IMG/VR virus record: IMGVR_UViG_3300031951_000024
Location: 90,297-154,296 of that record
Length of the DNA stretch: 64,000 nucleotides
Reading direction: 5' to 3' (one strand)
Source: a virus
Positions 49,582 through 56,895 of this stretch are shown here, piece by piece. Under the pieces are notes generated by a model that was given only the letters and a program-made list of their open reading frames with translations, had not been told where the DNA came from and searched no databases. Within the stretch, counting starts at the first letter, position 1; each line of letters begins with the position of its first letter. A program made the position numbers and the translations under genes.

Positions 49582-50574
49582 TCAATAGTTTGGTTTTGTG
49601 GTTCCATAATAATCTAACCAATATCCAATCATCTCATCTAACATAGTTTCAAAAGTGTATTCAGGAACCCAATTAAGGTCTTTTCTTAATTTTGTTGAGT
49701 CACCTTTTAAGTTATATAATTCTTCAGGTCTAAAATGTTTTTCATCTATAATAACATAATCTCTAAAATCCAACCCCAATTTAGAAAAGGTGTATTCACA
49801 GAGGTCTTTAACAGAATGTGAAATACCTGTGGAACAAACATAATCATTAGGTTTATCTGCTTGTAACATCATCCACATAGCCTTAACATAATCCTTGGCG
49901 TGACCCCAATCTCTGGTTGCGTCAAGATTACCTAAATGTAATTCATTTTGTAAACCAAGACTAATTCTGACAGCAGCCTTAACCACTTTATTTGTTACAA
50001 AGTTTGTTCCTCGTCTTGGTGATTCGTGATTAAATAAAATCCCATTCCATATTTTCATATCATAAGAATTTCTATAATTTCTACAAATATTATATGAAAA
50101 TACTTTAGCACAACCATATGGTGATACAGGATTCATTGGAGTTGTTTCTCTTTGATACCCGTCCTCATCAATCATATTACCAAACATTTCGGATGATGAT
50201 GCTTGATATATTTTTGAATGCGACGATACCATCCTTACTGCTTCAAGTAAGTTTAAAACACCAAGACCGGTTGCGTTTGCCGTATAGATTGGTTGATCAA
50301 ATGAAATCCTTACGTGTGATTGTGCCGCCAAATTATATATTTCATCTGGCTGGACTTTTTGTAAAACCCTAATTAATGACGCCATATCGGTAAGATCTGC
50401 GTACTCCAAATTAATTCTGTCAAAAATATGATTAATTCTTAATGATTGTGTTTCAGAAACTGAATTTCTTTTCACAATACCCCAAACCTCGTAATCTTTA
50501 TCTAATAAAAATTCGGCCAAGTATGAACCGTCTTGACCGTTAATCCCAGTTATTAATGCAATTTTTTTACCCAT
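49582..50574 (-). CDS. gmd: GDP-mannose 4,6-dehydratase
   Basis: This 330-residue short-chain dehydrogenase has the NADP-binding ITGINGQDGSYLAEFL (residues 8-23), DLTDMASLIRV, NLAAQSHVRISFDQP and the catalytic set S127/E129 (SSSEMFG), Tyr153 and Lys157 (YGCAK). GILFNHESPRRGTNFVTNKV is highly typical of Gmd. It converts GDP-D-mannose to GDP-4-keto-6-deoxy-D-mannose, the common precursor of GDP-fucose and GDP-colitose. It overlaps the next gene by 8 bases. The GDP-mannose must come from the host; no mannose-activating gene is in the window. Confidence 0.95.
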   Translation of the reverse strand: MGKKIALITGINGQDGSYLAEFLLDKDYEVWGIVKRNSVSETQSLRINHIFDRINLEYADLTDMASLIRVLQKVQPDEIYNLAAQSHVRISFDQPIYTANATGLGVLNLLEAVRMVSSHSKIYQASSSEMFGNMIDEDGYQRETTPMNPVSPYGCAKVFSYNICRNYRNSYDMKIWNGILFNHESPRRGTNFVTNKVVKAAVRISLGLQNELHLGNLDATRDWGHAKDYVKAMWMMLQADKPNDYVCSTGISHSVKDLCEYTFSKLGLDFRDYVIIDEKHFRPEELYNLKGDSTKLRKDLNWVPEYTFETMLDEMIGYWLDYYGTTKPNY

Positions 50575-51718
50575 TATTAATTATTTTACAAATCTTTTTT
50601 ATTTCTTCTAGTTTTAAATTCTGGTGGTTCGGTACATAAAATCCAAACTCGTTAATTTTTTCACAATTAGGTAAATCAAGAAAACCATAATTCTCATACC
50701 ACATTGGTTTTTTTGACATATTACCAGCGATTAATGGACGAACCTCAATTTCATTTTTAATAAGTTCTTCAATAATTTTTGTTTTATTTTTACTTACAAT
50801 TGGATAAGCAAAATTGGATATAAAATTATCTTCATCTATTTTAATGTTAATTTCATTATTTTTTATATTTGACATATACTCAGAAAAATTGTCATTTCTT
50901 TTTTTGGTGTAACCATCTAATTTTTGGATGGCTCGTAACCCAATAAAAGCCTGTAAATCTGTTGACCTAAGATTAAACCCGGGTAAATAAAAATTATATA
51001 AAGAATCAAAATTACTTACATTATATTTTTCTCTTAATTCATTTTGTTTCTCAACCGGTAAGTCCCTATCCCATCCGTGACTACGCATCATTAATAATGC
51101 GTGGTAAAAATCCTCATCATTTGTATTTATAAAACCACCCTCAATCGTACTTAAGTGATGCCCAAAATACATTGAAAAAAAAGAAGCAAACCCAAAAGAC
51201 CCTAGATAATTATCTTTATATTTTGACCCCATACTTTCGCACACGTCTTCCAAAAGTATAACATCATATTTTTTACATAAATAAATTATTTTATCCATAT
51301 CTGGGACCAAACCAAGTGGTGAAACTAATATAAAAACAGATGGAGTTTCTTTCTTAAAAATTTCTTCTAAATGATTTATATCACAAGATAAATCATATAA
51401 GTTACAATCACACATAATTGGTTCCATACCCAATAACATTGGAGAACTAACGTCGGTAGCCCAACTTAAACCTGGTATAACAACTTTTTGATTTTTAAGT
51501 TTATTTGTATGTTTTAATACCGCAAGTGTTAGTAAAATTGATGATGATCCAGAATTAACAAAAACAGAATATTTTGTCCCAATTTTTTTCGCCCAAAGGG
51601 TTTCTAACTGGATAGTTAAATCACCTTTTGTTAATCTCGGTATTTCATCCTGTGACAACCAATCAACTAGAGCTTCAATATCACCTTTATCTATTGTGTC
51701 ATTTACTAATTTTATCAT
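50567..51718 (-). CDS. colD: ColD-like GDP-4-keto-6-deoxymannose 3-dehydratase
   Basis: This 383-residue PLP enzyme of the DegT/DnrJ/EryC1 fold has FVNSGSSSILLTLAVLKH, VVIPGLSWATDVSSPMLLGM, LLEDVCESMGSKYKDNYLGS (Asp158 for PLP) and the active-site stretch FFSMYFGHHLSTIEGG. In aminotransferases this position holds the PLP lysine; here His187-His188 occupy it, which is the known signature of ColD, which removes the 3-hydroxyl of GDP-4-keto-6-deoxymannose. The RfbH/E1 iron-sulfur dehydrases have a similar His but are longer and Cys-bound; that is not seen. It lies between gmd and the reductase with 8- and 20-base overlaps, as expected for one pathway. Confidence 0.85.
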   Translation of the reverse strand: MIKLVNDTIDKGDIEALVDWLSQDEIPRLTKGDLTIQLETLWAKKIGTKYSVFVNSGSSSILLTLAVLKHTNKLKNQKVVIPGLSWATDVSSPMLLGMEPIMCDCNLYDLSCDINHLEEIFKKETPSVFILVSPLGLVPDMDKIIYLCKKYDVILLEDVCESMGSKYKDNYLGSFGFASFFSMYFGHHLSTIEGGFINTNDEDFYHALLMMRSHGWDRDLPVEKQNELREKYNVSNFDSLYNFYLPGFNLRSTDLQAFIGLRAIQKLDGYTKKRNDNFSEYMSNIKNNEINIKIDEDNFISNFAYPIVSKNKTKIIEELIKNEIEVRPLIAGNMSKKPMWYENYGFLDLPNCEKINEFGFYVPNHQNLKLEEIKKICKIINNG

Positions 51719-52613
51719 AATAACTTTTATAAACTAATTTTATTCCTTCAGACAATGATAACGGATTAAAATCTGGTAGTAAATATTTTAGTTTATCAAT
51801 ACAAACATCCTTTCTATGTTGACCATTTGGTTTAGATAAATCCCATTTAATTTCTATATTTTCGGCATCACAAGCTTTTAACGCTATTTCGGCCATTTCT
51901 TTGATTGTTAAATTCTCATTACCCGCGACATTAAAACTATCGTAAATATCATTTGATATAACATCATAAATAATTTTAGCAAAATCGTCGGCATACATAA
52001 ATTGTCTTAATGGTGTGCCATCACCAAATAATGTTATTGTATTTTCATTATTTTCTTTTGCGTCAAAAATTTTTTTAACTAATGCTGTGATAAAATGACT
52101 ATTTGATTCGTGATCTTTATCACCTAAACCATATAAATTACAAGGTGTCAGATATTGGTATTTTGTTCCATATTGTTTATTATATGAATCAATTTGGACA
52201 GCCATACTTCTTTTGGCGTACCCATAAGAAAAGTTTGTTATTGTTGGTGGACCAGAGTGCAAATCATTTTCTTTCATTGGGTAGGATTCCATAACATCCG
52301 GAAATATACACGTACTTAGTACCCCAATAAATCTTTTTGTATTTGTTTTTCTTGCGTAATCAATAAGAAGTGTATTCATTAATACATTATCTGTGTAATA
52401 CTCAGCCGGTTTATTAATATTGTCTAATATACCACCAACCTTTGCCGCTAAATGAACAACAACATCTGGTTTTTGTGATAAATACATAGTTCTAACACCA
52501 TTTTCTGTTGTTAAGTCATAATCTTTTGAAGATAGATATACTGCGTTAGGTAAGAATTTACGTAAACTTTTTCCGACCAAGCCAGATCCTCCGGTAACTA
52601 TTATTTTGACCAT
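51699..52613 (-). CDS. GDP-fucose-synthase/ColC-like epimerase-reductase
   Basis: This 304-residue SDR enzyme has VTGGSGLVGKSLRKF (7-20), VVVHLAAKVGGI, the catalytic S100-T101-C102 (LSTCIFP), Tyr130 and Lys134 (YGYAK) and His173 (SNSHFITAL), which match Ser107, Cys109, Tyr136, Lys140 and His179 of E. coli GDP-fucose synthase. Cys102 and His173 are the C3/C5 epimerisation pair. ColC is a close relative that acts on the 3-deoxy substrate. After Gmd it would give GDP-L-fucose; after Gmd and ColD, GDP-L-colitose. The sequence alone cannot fully separate these, but the ColD neighbour favours colitose. Confidence 0.85.
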   Translation of the reverse strand: MVKIIVTGGSGLVGKSLRKFLPNAVYLSSKDYDLTTENGVRTMYLSQKPDVVVHLAAKVGGILDNINKPAEYYTDNVLMNTLLIDYARKTNTKRFIGVLSTCIFPDVMESYPMKENDLHSGPPTITNFSYGYAKRSMAVQIDSYNKQYGTKYQYLTPCNLYGLGDKDHESNSHFITALVKKIFDAKENNENTITLFGDGTPLRQFMYADDFAKIIYDVISNDIYDSFNVAGNENLTIKEMAEIALKACDAENIEIKWDLSKPNGQHRKDVCIDKLKYLLPDFNPLSLSEGIKLVYKSYYDKISK

Positions 52614-52614
52614 A

Positions 52615-53229
52615 TTAATTAATTTTTTTTAAAAATCCGTTAATATTAAATGTTGCATTTTTACCAAAAAAATCACAAATTTCTCTGTCTATCTCATACC
52701 CGGTATTATTTGTCAAAAATTCATCAATAGCTTTAAGAGGACCACCACCATAATCTTTGTATCCTAGTTCATTTAAGACACCATCCTCAACAATAAAGTA
52801 AGAACCTTTAGTAACTAAATGGTTAAACATCAATAAACTTTTCTTAACGTCCTGGTAGGTATGTGAACCGTCATCAATTACCAATATATTTTTAAATCCA
52901 GATGTGTTATTTAAGTCGTAAGACTCATAACCACCTAAAAATCTTTTTATATTTTTATTATTTAAAACTAATTCATTTGTCACCATATCAACAATGTCAA
53001 TTGTATGTACAATACCATATCCATTTAATTGCTGTAAATCAGATAGATACAATGATCCACCACCAGCATTTGTCCCAATTTCTATTATTAAATCTGGTTT
53101 TACTTTTGATATTATCATTTGGTACAACACATAATCAAAAGGACACCTTATCGCTTTTACACCCCTATATGTTACTTTATGATGTCCGTCACATATAGTT
53201 TGGAGATTAAAATTAACCGTATTATCCAT
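52615..53229 (-). CDS. CmcI-type methyltransferase-like protein
   Basis: This 204-residue protein has the SAM-binding core DLIIEIGTNAGGGSLYLSDL (about residues 48-67) and the CmcI-family signature: KNILVIDDGSHTYQDVKKSL, then GSYFIVEDGVLNELGYKDYG. CmcI-like enzymes (cephalosporin-hydroxylase family) are SAM-dependent, often O-methyltransferases acting on sugars or other small molecules. The metal-binding acidic residues (IDDGSH, VEDG) are present. It lies between the sugar-synthesis trio and the next methyltransferase, with 1-base spacing, and could O-methylate a sugar. Confidence 0.75.
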   Translation of the reverse strand: MDNTVNFNLQTICDGHHKVTYRGVKAIRCPFDYVLYQMIISKVKPDLIIEIGTNAGGGSLYLSDLQQLNGYGIVHTIDIVDMVTNELVLNNKNIKRFLGGYESYDLNNTSGFKNILVIDDGSHTYQDVKKSLLMFNHLVTKGSYFIVEDGVLNELGYKDYGGGPLKAIDEFLTNNTGYEIDREICDFFGKNATFNINGFLKKIN

Positions 53230-54633: not shown

Positions 54634-55386
54634 CTATATTAAAAGTTTTATTTTTCCCTCAAGTCTTGACCAAAAATCAGTATAATTTTTTGCTAACTCA
54701 AAATTAGTTTTAATATATGGTAACATCTCAAAATATGTTGCATCATTTAACATATTTTTCTTAGTTGCCAAATCTTCAATAGATTCTATAATTATAAAAC
54801 CCCTAGTATCAAAATAGTCACCTATGTTTGGACATCCCCAGTAAATTGGTATTGTACCAGTAACTAAACAATCAATAATTTTTTCTGTAAACCAGTTATC
54901 CATTTTTTCATTTTCAATAATAAGTGAAAATCTATAATCTTTAAGCGCTGTAATTTTATTTTCAATTGGGTTATAACCATTACCAAATAAATCTAATTCA
55001 ATAAGATTACTTTGTATAATGTTGTGTCTTAAGTTATGTCCAATTGTTTTACGTTTAACTGATGCTATGATTGAAGTTTCTTTTGTTTTTTCGTGTATTT
55101 TCCGATCTTCATTCTTAATCCAGCAGGAACCAAATGGGAATAAAACGCTATTTGAACACTTATTAAGTATATCCTTATTCCAAGTAAAAATTACATTAAA
55201 TTTATTTTGGTTGTTTATTATTGCTTGTGTTGTATTCATAATTGATGGTGGCTCAATCTGCACTAGAACATTTAAATCAGCGTCTAAAGTATTTGCTATT
55301 GTATCAAAAGATATTGAAACTTTTTTATCAAAAAAAAGCTCGTTATGGAGTGTCCCAAGTGTTATTACTTTTATATTCTTTCCCAT
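54634..55386 (-). CDS. GT10-like (alpha-1,3/4) fucosyltransferase
   Basis: This 250-residue protein has the GT10 signature in its C-terminal half: YRFSLIIENEKMDNWFTEKI, then IDCLVTGTIPIYWGCPNIGD and YFDTRGFIIIESIEDLAT (family pattern F-l-fEN-YvTEKl-dal-G-vPVy-G). GT10 enzymes use GDP-fucose. The N-terminal half carries FNVIFTWNKDILNKCSNSVL and FPFGSCWIKNEDRKIHEKTK. Bacterial GT10 proteins, such as Helicobacter ones, are larger with repeats; this is a minimal form. The overlap by 16 bases with the GT11-like gene suggests the two act in one glycan pathway. The donor may be GDP-fucose or GDP-colitose. Confidence 0.8.
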   Translation of the reverse strand: MGKNIKVITLGTLHNELFFDKKVSISFDTIANTLDADLNVLVQIEPPSIMNTTQAIINNQNKFNVIFTWNKDILNKCSNSVLFPFGSCWIKNEDRKIHEKTKETSIIASVKRKTIGHNLRHNIIQSNLIELDLFGNGYNPIENKITALKDYRFSLIIENEKMDNWFTEKIIDCLVTGTIPIYWGCPNIGDYFDTRGFIIIESIEDLATKKNMLNDATYFEMLPYIKTNFELAKNYTDFWSRLEGKIKLLI

Positions 55387-56138
55387 CTTTCTGGTATTAA
55401 ATCCTCTGTATTATGGTTAGTATTTGTCCCAAACCAAACTTTAGGTGCAAAAACTTTTTTATTTTCATTATTGTTTAACCAAGCTCCCCACCAAGAAAAT
55501 GTTGAGTTTGCAATTATATTATTTTTACATAAAGACATTAAGTATAAATCTATGTAATCTTGATTACCATCAATAAAAACCAGATTTTTATTTTCAAAGG
55601 TTAAATTTTCCTTACACCAATCAAGATCATCTGAAAAAATTAATATATTTTCAGAGTCTATAATGTCAATAGAATTTTGATAATATTTTAAATCACAAGT
55701 AGGATGAATTCCAGGATACTTTAAGTAGTCACCCCTTCTTACGTGTAGTGAGCAACTATTTTCAAAATTAACGTCTTTATATTTTTCCTTTATTATTTTT
55801 TCACTCAACTCATCAATAGAAAATAAATTTAATATCTCATTTCTATTTTTAAAAAAATATTTTTCACTTTGGAAATACCCGGATAATAAGATATTTGGGC
55901 GATAATTAATTTCTTTATAATGAAAATATGGTTCTTGGTAAAGACCATTATAAATTACCTGGTCAAACTCAAGATTTCTAAAAATATTATTTTTGTAGTT
56001 AGAAATCCCTTTGTGGACGGTAACACTTCTTTGTTCGTCAAGTATTAATTTGTCATTGTTATTAATTGCTAACGAATACGCTGCAGCAATCTGAAACATA
56101 TAATTACCAAGACCACCAGCTAAACTAACACTAATCAT
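55371..56138 (-). CDS. GT11-like alpha-1,2-fucosyltransferase
   Basis: This 255-residue protein has the GT11 motif set: SVSLAGGLGNYMFQIAAAYS (GGLGNQMFQ-type start, residues 4-23), the GDP-binding HVRRGDYLKYPGIHPTCDLK (HxRRxDY), NILIFSDDLDWCKENLTFEN and NIIANSTFSWWGAWLNNNEN (N-STFSWWGAWL). These match bacterial alpha-1,2-fucosyltransferases over the full length. The enzyme would transfer fucose, or a related GDP-deoxysugar such as colitose, from the product of the neighbouring genes. It is the clearest fucosyltransferase in the cluster. Confidence 0.92.
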   Translation of the reverse strand: MISVSLAGGLGNYMFQIAAAYSLAINNNDKLILDEQRSVTVHKGISNYKNNIFRNLEFDQVIYNGLYQEPYFHYKEINYRPNILLSGYFQSEKYFFKNRNEILNLFSIDELSEKIIKEKYKDVNFENSCSLHVRRGDYLKYPGIHPTCDLKYYQNSIDIIDSENILIFSDDLDWCKENLTFENKNLVFIDGNQDYIDLYLMSLCKNNIIANSTFSWWGAWLNNNENKKVFAPKVWFGTNTNHNTEDLIPERWERI

Positions 56139-56895
56139 TAATCCAATTCCAAGTTTTTATATGTTCTGTTAATTGTTCTTTATTCATTGACATAATTCTA
56201 TTATACTCATTACCATTGTGGGCGTACATTGGGTTTGATCCAGAGCTATTATGTGTCCGATGATGTGTTAGATGATATAACACACCATCAACCCTATAAA
56301 TACCATATCCCATCTTTTCAATTCTTCCAATTCTTTCCCAGTCCTCGTGTCCCCAGGATATAAAATTCTCATTCTCAAGACCAATTTTTGTGTATGCATC
56401 TTTATTAAAGAATATTGCACCACCAAGTGAGTTTGGGTTAAATAACGTACATTCATTTAAATTTATTGTATCAAAATTGTTTGACTCAACGTTCTGAAAA
56501 TACTTTGGTGGGATGTCATAGAATTTTCCGGAATATGGAAATGCAAAATCAATACCGGTATTAAGTGCAAACCGGGCTGCAATATATTGATCTGGTTTAA
56601 ACAAAACATCAACATCATAATTAACAACAATATTTGTCTTTGACATTTTTGTCATAACATTTAACATTCTAGTTCTGTGAAATAAAGTGTCTTCAGTTTG
56701 TTCAAATAAGTAGAGTACTTTATTAGAAACAGATTTAACAAACTCTTCATTTGATTCTTTATCCGATTCCATCACAATAATGTTGGTATCAAATGTTTTT
56801 TCTAAAAACCCAATTGTAATTTTAAAATTTCTTTTTCTGTCTTCACTATCAAATCTTATTGGGATAATGAAAGTAACATCTTTAAAATCTATCAT
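56131..56895 (-). CDS. galactosyltransferase-type (GT7-like) glycosyltransferase
   Basis: This 254-residue protein has a GT-A form: DVTFIIPIRFDSEDRKRNFK, the metal site VVNYDVDVLFKPDQ (DVD), and near the C-terminus LGGAIFFNKDAYTKIGLENE with NFISWGHEDWERIGRIEKMG. The WGHED--R pattern is that of beta-1,4-galactosyltransferase (GT7) and related GT27 C-terminal regions, followed by a YHLTHHRTHNSSG acceptor loop. It overlaps the GT11 gene by 8 bases. The donor is likely UDP-galactose or UDP-HexNAc, by family only. Confidence 0.75.
   Translation of the reverse strand: MIDFKDVTFIIPIRFDSEDRKRNFKITIGFLEKTFDTNIIVMESDKESNEEFVKSVSNKVLYLFEQTEDTLFHRTRMLNVMTKMSKTNIVVNYDVDVLFKPDQYIAARFALNTGIDFAFPYSGKFYDIPPKYFQNVESNNFDTINLNECTLFNPNSLGGAIFFNKDAYTKIGLENENFISWGHEDWERIGRIEKMGYGIYRVDGVLYHLTHHRTHNSSGSNPMYAHNGNEYNRIMSMNKEQLTEHIKTWNWIND

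Follow-up and report, generated by a model that had tools for sequence, protein, structure and literature searches.

The final 64,000 bases of the 154,296-base virus record IMGVR_UViG_3300031951_000024 (hereafter the window; 31% G+C) carry on the minus strand three overlapping genes for nucleotide-sugar enzymes: an epimerase/reductase of the GMER type, a DegT-family protein resembling the 3-dehydratase ColD, and a GDP-mannose 4,6-dehydratase (Gmd). In the direction of transcription, the reductase gene comes first, followed by the ColD-like gene, with which it shares 20 bases, and then by the Gmd gene, which overlaps the ColD-like gene by 8. An earlier note on this DNA had described these three genes and their order, and the open reading frame (ORF) coordinates and the matches to PF01370, PF01041 and PF16363 bear it out (Table 1); the note also read them as a set for making GDP-L-colitose, the reading examined here.

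Table 1 Sugar-nucleotide genes of the window and their neighbours. PMP, pyridoxamine 5'-phosphate.
Feature	Coordinates in window	Strand	Details
Epimerase/reductase of the GMER type, NAD(P)-dependent; putative GDP-colitose synthase with a ColC-like role	51699..52613	-	304 aa; PF01370, 156 bits, above cut-off
ColD-like, predicted PMP-dependent GDP-4-keto-6-deoxymannose 3-dehydratase	50567..51718	-	383 aa; PF01041, 183 bits, above cut-off
GDP-mannose 4,6-dehydratase (Gmd)	49582..50574	-	330 aa; PF16363, 404 bits, above gathering cut-off of 27
GT11 glycosyltransferase (fucosyltransferase family), candidate colitosyltransferase	55371..56138	-	PF01531, 110 bits; PHROG 2644
GT10 glycosyltransferase (fucosyltransferase family), candidate colitosyltransferase	54634..55386	-	PF00852, 37 bits; alpha-1,3-fucosyltransferase 2nzw, 43 bits
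GT7/GT2-like glycosyltransferase, possible acceptor-building enzyme	56131..56895	-	PF02709, 34 bits; weak match to beta-1,4-galactosyltransferase 7, E 0.0018
RMNT/CmcI-type methyltransferase adjoining the reductase gene; outside the conserved core	52615..53229	-	PF04989, 109 bits

A linked set of genes in viral genomes

A scan with the ColD-like protein returned 24 viral loci, which hold 17 distinct reductase sequences, several of them in copies. The reductase, ColD-like and Gmd genes stand in that order in all 24, in some with an extra gene between them; every locus keeps the GHH motif of the ColD-like protein, and PhoH comes next after the trio in 19. In pairwise comparisons with the loci L009, L010 and L030, the ratio of nonsynonymous to synonymous change (dN/dS) for each gene is 0.09-0.14, with a proportion of 0.53-0.70 of the synonymous sites different; the three genes are under purifying selection. 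The shared order in 24 of 24 loci together with these ratios argues that the pattern is not due to chance.

We also pooled two reductase scans with the 24 ColD-like loci, taking the best 80 of each scan and flanks of 5-8 kb that ended at contig ends, which gave 142 distinct viral reductases. A DegT gene with His in place of the catalytic Lys (His-type) and Gmd are both in the locus of 91, DegT only in 19, Gmd only in 22 and neither in 10, and the plain arrangement reductase-DegT-Gmd is the commonest (72 of 142). Because only the best 80 per scan were taken and flanks were bounded by contig ends, these counts are not natural frequencies.

Related gene sets occur in named phages. The Synechococcus phages S-CAM7 (KU686212) and ACG-2014f (NC_026927) carry adjoining genes for Gmd, a GDP-fucose-synthase-like protein and a His-type DegT protein, with a GT11 gene next to the trio in S-CAM7. 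Here, however, the order is Gmd-reductase-DegT, the reductase resembles E. coli Fcl (303-304 bits) and has Pro at position 164 (E. coli Fcl numbering throughout), and the DegT protein, annotated as an aminotransferase or a CDP-sugar 3-dehydrase, falls elsewhere in the same wider clade. Cyanophage S-SCSM1 likewise encodes Gmd and GDP-fucose synthase together with fucosyltransferases, but the accessible part of its description covers GDP-fucose and GDP-galactose steps and no 3-dehydratase (PMC9602691). No paper on the making of colitose or a dideoxyhexose by phages was among the matches listed in the open-licence PMC literature, searched mostly by title and abstract, and the accessible parts of PMC7725333, PMC9614988 and PMC12409901 contain nothing on phage-made colitose.

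The ColD-like DegT protein

The DegT protein of the window contains the motif FFSMYFGHH. In the PDB chain of an E. coli ColD mutant titled H188N, the residue that differs from the native protein is the first of the two His in the HH pair, and we therefore place the catalytic residue at His187 of the phage protein. This column corresponds to H188 in ColD and holds Lys in ArnB and WecE of E. coli K-12; among the 275 DegT-like ORFs of all loci, it holds His in 250, Lys in 24 and a gap in one.

E. coli ColD is the best match in both sequence and structure. With the phage protein as query, the score is 195 bits against E. coli ColD, compared with 96 against E1 and 89 against perosamine synthase. 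Its AlphaFold2 model (mean predicted local distance difference test score, pLDDT, 92.9) gives structure Z scores of 45.0-45.6 to four ColD entries, 42.3 to E1, 42.1 to an aminotransferase and 41.9 to perosamine synthase, and Foldseek ranks 1-12 are ColD chains throughout. E1 (RfbH), the CDP-4-keto-6-deoxyglucose 3-dehydratase, is likewise a His-type, PMP-dependent enzyme of the same fold. The columns of its residues C251, C253 and C261, which along with C193 we take to be ligands of the iron-sulfur (Fe-S) cluster, hold R, L and L in the window protein, and only the C193 column keeps its Cys, as it does in ColD. E1 requires an Fe-S cluster, according to the part of a review available to us (PMC8987622); the same source describes ColD as free of such a cluster, with His as acid/base and an intermediate that is hydrolysed, and states that transferase activity was not observed with ColD or E1.

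In a tree of 91 DegT rows, seven Lys-type rows separate with 99% support and the E1-type rows form a second group, while the window protein and E. coli ColD share a superclade of 75 rows (97%). Inside it, a clade of 15 rows (99%) contains E. coli ColD without the window protein, which belongs to a sister set of 60 rows (97%) from phages and a range of uncultured bacteria. By sequence, the window protein is a relative and not an orthologue of E. coli ColD. The comparison with PerA, a perosamine synthase, rests on sequence score and structure, not on the tree.

These results bear on whether the DegT protein might instead be a perosamine-type aminotransferase, as the name of the PF01041 family would suggest. 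His187 replaces the catalytic Lys, the branch from the seven Lys-type rows has 99% support, the sequence and structure scores to perosamine synthase are lower, and the accessible part of PMC8987622 reports no transferase activity for the two dehydratases; we give this alternative only the slimmest of chances. Because the protein is nearest to ColD in sequence and predicted fold, lies in the ColD superclade, has His187 and lacks the set of Fe-S cysteines, ColD-like chemistry is most likely, and the protein is best regarded as a ColD-type 3-dehydratase, not an aminotransferase. The earlier note had called it so, from the motif with His in place of the Lys that binds pyridoxal phosphate, and the motif is present and the assignment is supported. 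In a tree of the kind it proposed, the protein does stand apart from the Lys-type rows, but it is not in the clade of E. coli ColD.

Several variants were seen among the relatives of this protein. One ColD-like gene (L022:8001-9065) lacks, in frame, some 30 residues directly ahead of the GHH motif, the ED-CES segment among them; this is either a variant or an assembly artefact. DegT proteins near the same reductase clade (L215:6899-8101, L172:6957-8144 and others) have Gln, Thr or Leu after the catalytic His, a variation confined to the second position of the HH pair; six such Gln/Leu proteins in the tree make up one long-branched clade. The DegT gene at L031:25-1083, whose 4.6 kb contig was binned to Blastocatellia, nests among viral sequences, and is possibly from a phage contig or a host-borne copy. 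Lys-type DegT aminotransferases also occur on phage close to the same gene set (L012:2469-3653, L191:1264-2511 and L165:457-1554). In seven loci with relatives of the reductase (L166, L173, L178, L185, L212, L225 and L227), an E1/RfbH-like 3-dehydratase of 444-463 aa replaces the ColD-like one; the L178 protein scores 328 bits to E1, and the six compared with E1 column by column (from L166, L173, L178, L185, L212 and L225) have Cys at C193, C251 and C253.

Gmd and the reductase

The window Gmd is 46% identical to K-12 Gmd and has S, E, Y and K at K-12 positions 133, 135, 157 and 161, which we take to be those of the catalytic Ser/Thr-Glu-Tyr-Lys.

The best solved relative of the reductase is human GDP-fucose synthase (184 bits), with E. 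coli Fcl at 140 bits, and its model (pLDDT 94.2) reaches a template modelling (TM) score of 0.94 to the human enzyme (4bl5). The equivalents of S107, C109, Y136, K140 and H179 are kept in all 24 phage loci; in GMER/Fcl numbering, these include the Ser-Tyr-Lys residues and the Cys109 and His179 with roles in epimerisation. Because these GMER residues are kept, both epimerisation at C5 and reduction at C4 are possible.

In a tree of 138 reductase rows, the window protein falls in a viral clade of 38 with 100% support. A His-type DegT gene lies within 5 kb in 37 of the 38, a share that is biased upwards because part of the set entered through the DegT gene. The window reductase does not group with the reductases that neighbour bacterial ColD, in a tree without a characterised sequence of ColC, the colitose-pathway reductase of E. 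coli. By this placement, the window reductase is neither a bacterial Fcl nor a bacterial ColC orthologue. The name ColC for the E. coli pathway comes from the reference list of PMC8987622.

GDP-L-colitose as the probable product, and alternatives

We think it probable that the phage makes GDP-L-colitose from GDP-mannose of the host during infection and feeds it to the GT10 and GT11 transferases encoded nearby. In this route, Gmd would convert GDP-mannose to GDP-4-keto-6-deoxymannose. The ColD-like enzyme, its PMP regenerated from glutamate and with His187 as acid/base, would then take off the 3-hydroxyl through a dehydration followed by hydrolysis, with no Fe-S cluster involved, and the GMER-type enzyme would epimerise C5 and reduce C4. 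Finally, GT10 and GT11 would put the sugar onto a glycan of the infected cell or the virion. What the analysis shows is which genes are present and linked, their catalytic residues, the folds predicted for the proteins, their clades and the selection on them; from this we infer the reactions, the L-configuration, which donor the transferases use and what the acceptor is. Since the support consists of linkage, fold and residues, the product is argued rather than demonstrated. The E. coli colitose pathway (Gmd, ColD/WbdK and ColC) uses the same three types of enzyme, including a His-type, Fe-S-free 3-dehydratase. It differs in that the phage DegT protein lies in the sister clade and the phage reductase in a GMER-like viral clade, and in gene order, which in bacterial ColD loci is often Gmd-reductase-ColD.

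A number of observations weigh against this reading, and we take them up together with the alternatives that they touch. The ColD-like protein lies outside the canonical ColD clade and is only about 31-33% identical to E. coli ColD over the aligned part, and the window Gmd, at 409.3 bits, falls just below the curated cut-off of 415 for TIGR01472. Among the 24 closest loci, nine have no relative of either GT10 or GT11 at E 1e-8 within the stretch of sequence covered. The reductase scores 201 bits with the Fcl model NF047922, compared with a curated cut-off of 500. In the class of Flavobacterium limnosediminis, 48 of 60 genomes have matches to this model at E 1e-40; their best scores are 445-520 in 44 genomes and 274-300 in four, and an additional paralogue in one genome scores 419. 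In 12 genomes picked for ColD, the best score is 295-330 in 11 and 436 in one. At 201 bits, compared with 295-330 and 445-520, the window reductase belongs to neither class.

Residue 164 of the reductase, a marker noticed in this analysis and not taken from the literature, is relevant here. It is Thr in 30 of 30 Fcl proteins (the top scorers among the Fcl-model matches in the class of F. limnosediminis) and Cys in 39 of 44 reductases of canonical ColD loci, those left after hand removal of 16 loci (with GHH-clade, fused, multiple or distant reductases) and of lengths outside 280-325. Cys is also found in 22 of the 24 phage loci and in the window, as read from the identical locus L007. Cys164 occurs in 9 of 36 viral reductases without a nearby His-type DegT gene, and six bacterial loci with such a gene nearby have Thr164. 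Further points against the colitose reading come from a second viral group, of the L027 type, where Thr164 is found in 33 of the 35 reductases that have a His-type DegT gene no more than 5 kb away, and from a test on independent pairs (136 sequences, left of 261 after filters on length, flank and 70% identity), in which Cys164 was not significant: the median p was 0.5, and of the 7 pairs on supported branches an average of 1.9 agreed, 0.2 opposed and 4.9 showed no difference. We therefore dropped Cys164 as a clean marker of colitose synthases. Because the L027-type group also carries the trio but not this residue, the Cys common to the window reductase and the neighbours of bacterial ColD is suggestive only.

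The reductase could be an ordinary GDP-L-fucose synthase acting on the product of Gmd, with the 3-dehydratase as a side branch, so that GDP-fucose or a mixture of sugars results. Its closest solved relative is indeed human GDP-fucose synthase, GT10 and GT11 are fucosyltransferase families, and the L027-type group pairs an Fcl-like Thr164 with a His-type DegT gene. Yet in the window's own reductase clade the DegT gene is almost always at hand, and the window has the Cys164 of most canonical ColD loci, not the Thr of Fcl; on this evidence we consider fucose unlikely, though it is the alternative that deserves most attention.

The end product might also be another 3,6-dideoxy sugar, formed by C4 reduction without C5 epimerisation or by direct use of the 4-keto sugar. 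Some Campylobacter short-chain dehydrogenases/reductases of the same fold are C4-reductases, going by their entry titles. However, both GMER epimerase residues are kept in all 24 phage loci, and the nearest folds are epimerase/reductases, with the reductase 2pk3 more remote at 21% identity; such a product seems to us improbable.

The wider DegT clade raises the question of the nucleotide. In a scan of genome contigs (best 80 of 528 matches), many canonical ColD loci contain Gmd and an Fcl/ColC-like gene, and Gmd was not seen in the loci of the five bacteria nearest the viral group (L032-L036). One of these, from the Pelagibacteraceae (L034:5771-13383), combines a His-type ColD relative, a Lys-type aminotransferase and genes judged by eye to resemble those for CDP-glucose dehydratase and a nucleotidyltransferase. 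Both findings also speak against the colitose reading. Because these five lack Gmd in the locus and L034 is near CDP-glucose-like genes, nucleotide preference may differ within the clade, and together with the E1-type enzymes of several viral relatives this would fit the same types of enzyme working on a substrate that is not GDP-linked. In the close viral relatives, however, Gmd is in the locus in all 24, and the window genes overlap. We regard a different nucleotide as very improbable for the phage; the five bacteria weaken, but do not remove, the case for GDP-sugars across the whole wider clade.

We return to GDP-L-colitose as the probable product. The earlier interpretation was largely right on the chemistry, since three linked genes fit the route, and imprecise on kinship: the DegT protein comes from a clade sister to that of E. 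coli ColD, and the reductase is not orthologous to the neighbours of bacterial ColD. It was wrong in holding a phage dideoxysugar pathway to be rare, given the trio at 91 of 142 distinct viral reductases and in S-CAM7 and ACG-2014f. The recurrence of the trio points to phages that produce an unusual surface sugar of their own. More interesting to us is that ColD-like and GMER-like enzymes of a viral lineage stay together from genome to genome. A bolder proposal, which we put forward tentatively and would not yet bet on, is that this is a virus-specific route to a 3,6-dideoxy-L-hexose, assembled independently of the bacterial colitose operon from a GMER-like reductase, a sister-clade ColD and Gmd, widespread in large phages, and feeding GT10 and GT11, which would build Lewis-like glycans with colitose on the virion or the infected cell.

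If the colitose reading is true, phages produce a rare bacterial surface sugar from a host precursor, using enzymes of their own lineage. It would become testable whether they thereby change the receptor glycans of the cells they infect, put the sugar on their virions, or provide one that the host does not have. Phage annotations such as 'aminotransferase', 'CDP-sugar dehydrase' and 'GDP-fucose synthase' would need correcting, and new enzymes for GDP-colitose synthesis would be in hand.

Glycosyltransferases, host and neighbouring genes

The GT10 and GT11 genes lie upstream of the trio on the same strand. Where a viral reductase locus includes a His-type DegT gene, relatives of GT10, GT11 or both are also there in 85 of 110 cases, compared with 11 of 32 where it does not, counts that are uncorrected for kinship and flank length. 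The set of glycosyltransferases around the trio differs among the 24 viral loci, and for the GT11 protein we did not find a solved relative at E 0.01. WbgN of E. coli O55 has GDP-colitose as its natural donor and tolerates GDP-fucose, according to the part of PMC12723683 available to us; because this enzyme takes both donors, enzymes of the fucosyltransferase type could plausibly use GDP-colitose. Homologues of CpsB and of a portion of CpsG used as query were not found in the record (ORFs of at least 60 aa, E 1e-4), and so GDP-mannose would come from the host. The acceptor might be a surface polysaccharide of the host, virion protein or DNA; as the adjoining transferases belong to families that build oligosaccharides, we favour a surface or virion glycan over DNA as the destination of the sugar.

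The methyltransferase gene ends 1 base upstream of the reductase gene. Matches to its product at E 1e-8 occur in only two of the 24 viral loci (L007 and L023), both of which are identical to the window.

Among the proteins of the record are a major head protein of PHROG 138 and the large subunit of a terminase, which identify the virus as a tailed phage, and from its capsid and terminase matches it may be T4-like. In named records, the nearest major capsid proteins are those of an uncultured phage, Microcystis phage Mel-JY01 and Flavobacterium phage immuto, distant matches with 37-46% identity across 56-66% of the query; the best terminase matches are also distant (26-29% identity). Among 120 genomes of the F. 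limnosediminis family, three have a close match to canonical ColD (E 1e-80), one of the three being the genome on which the search was centred. Flavobacterium sp. LMO8 (L096), the listed host of immuto phages, has a canonical gmd-reductase-ColD cluster.

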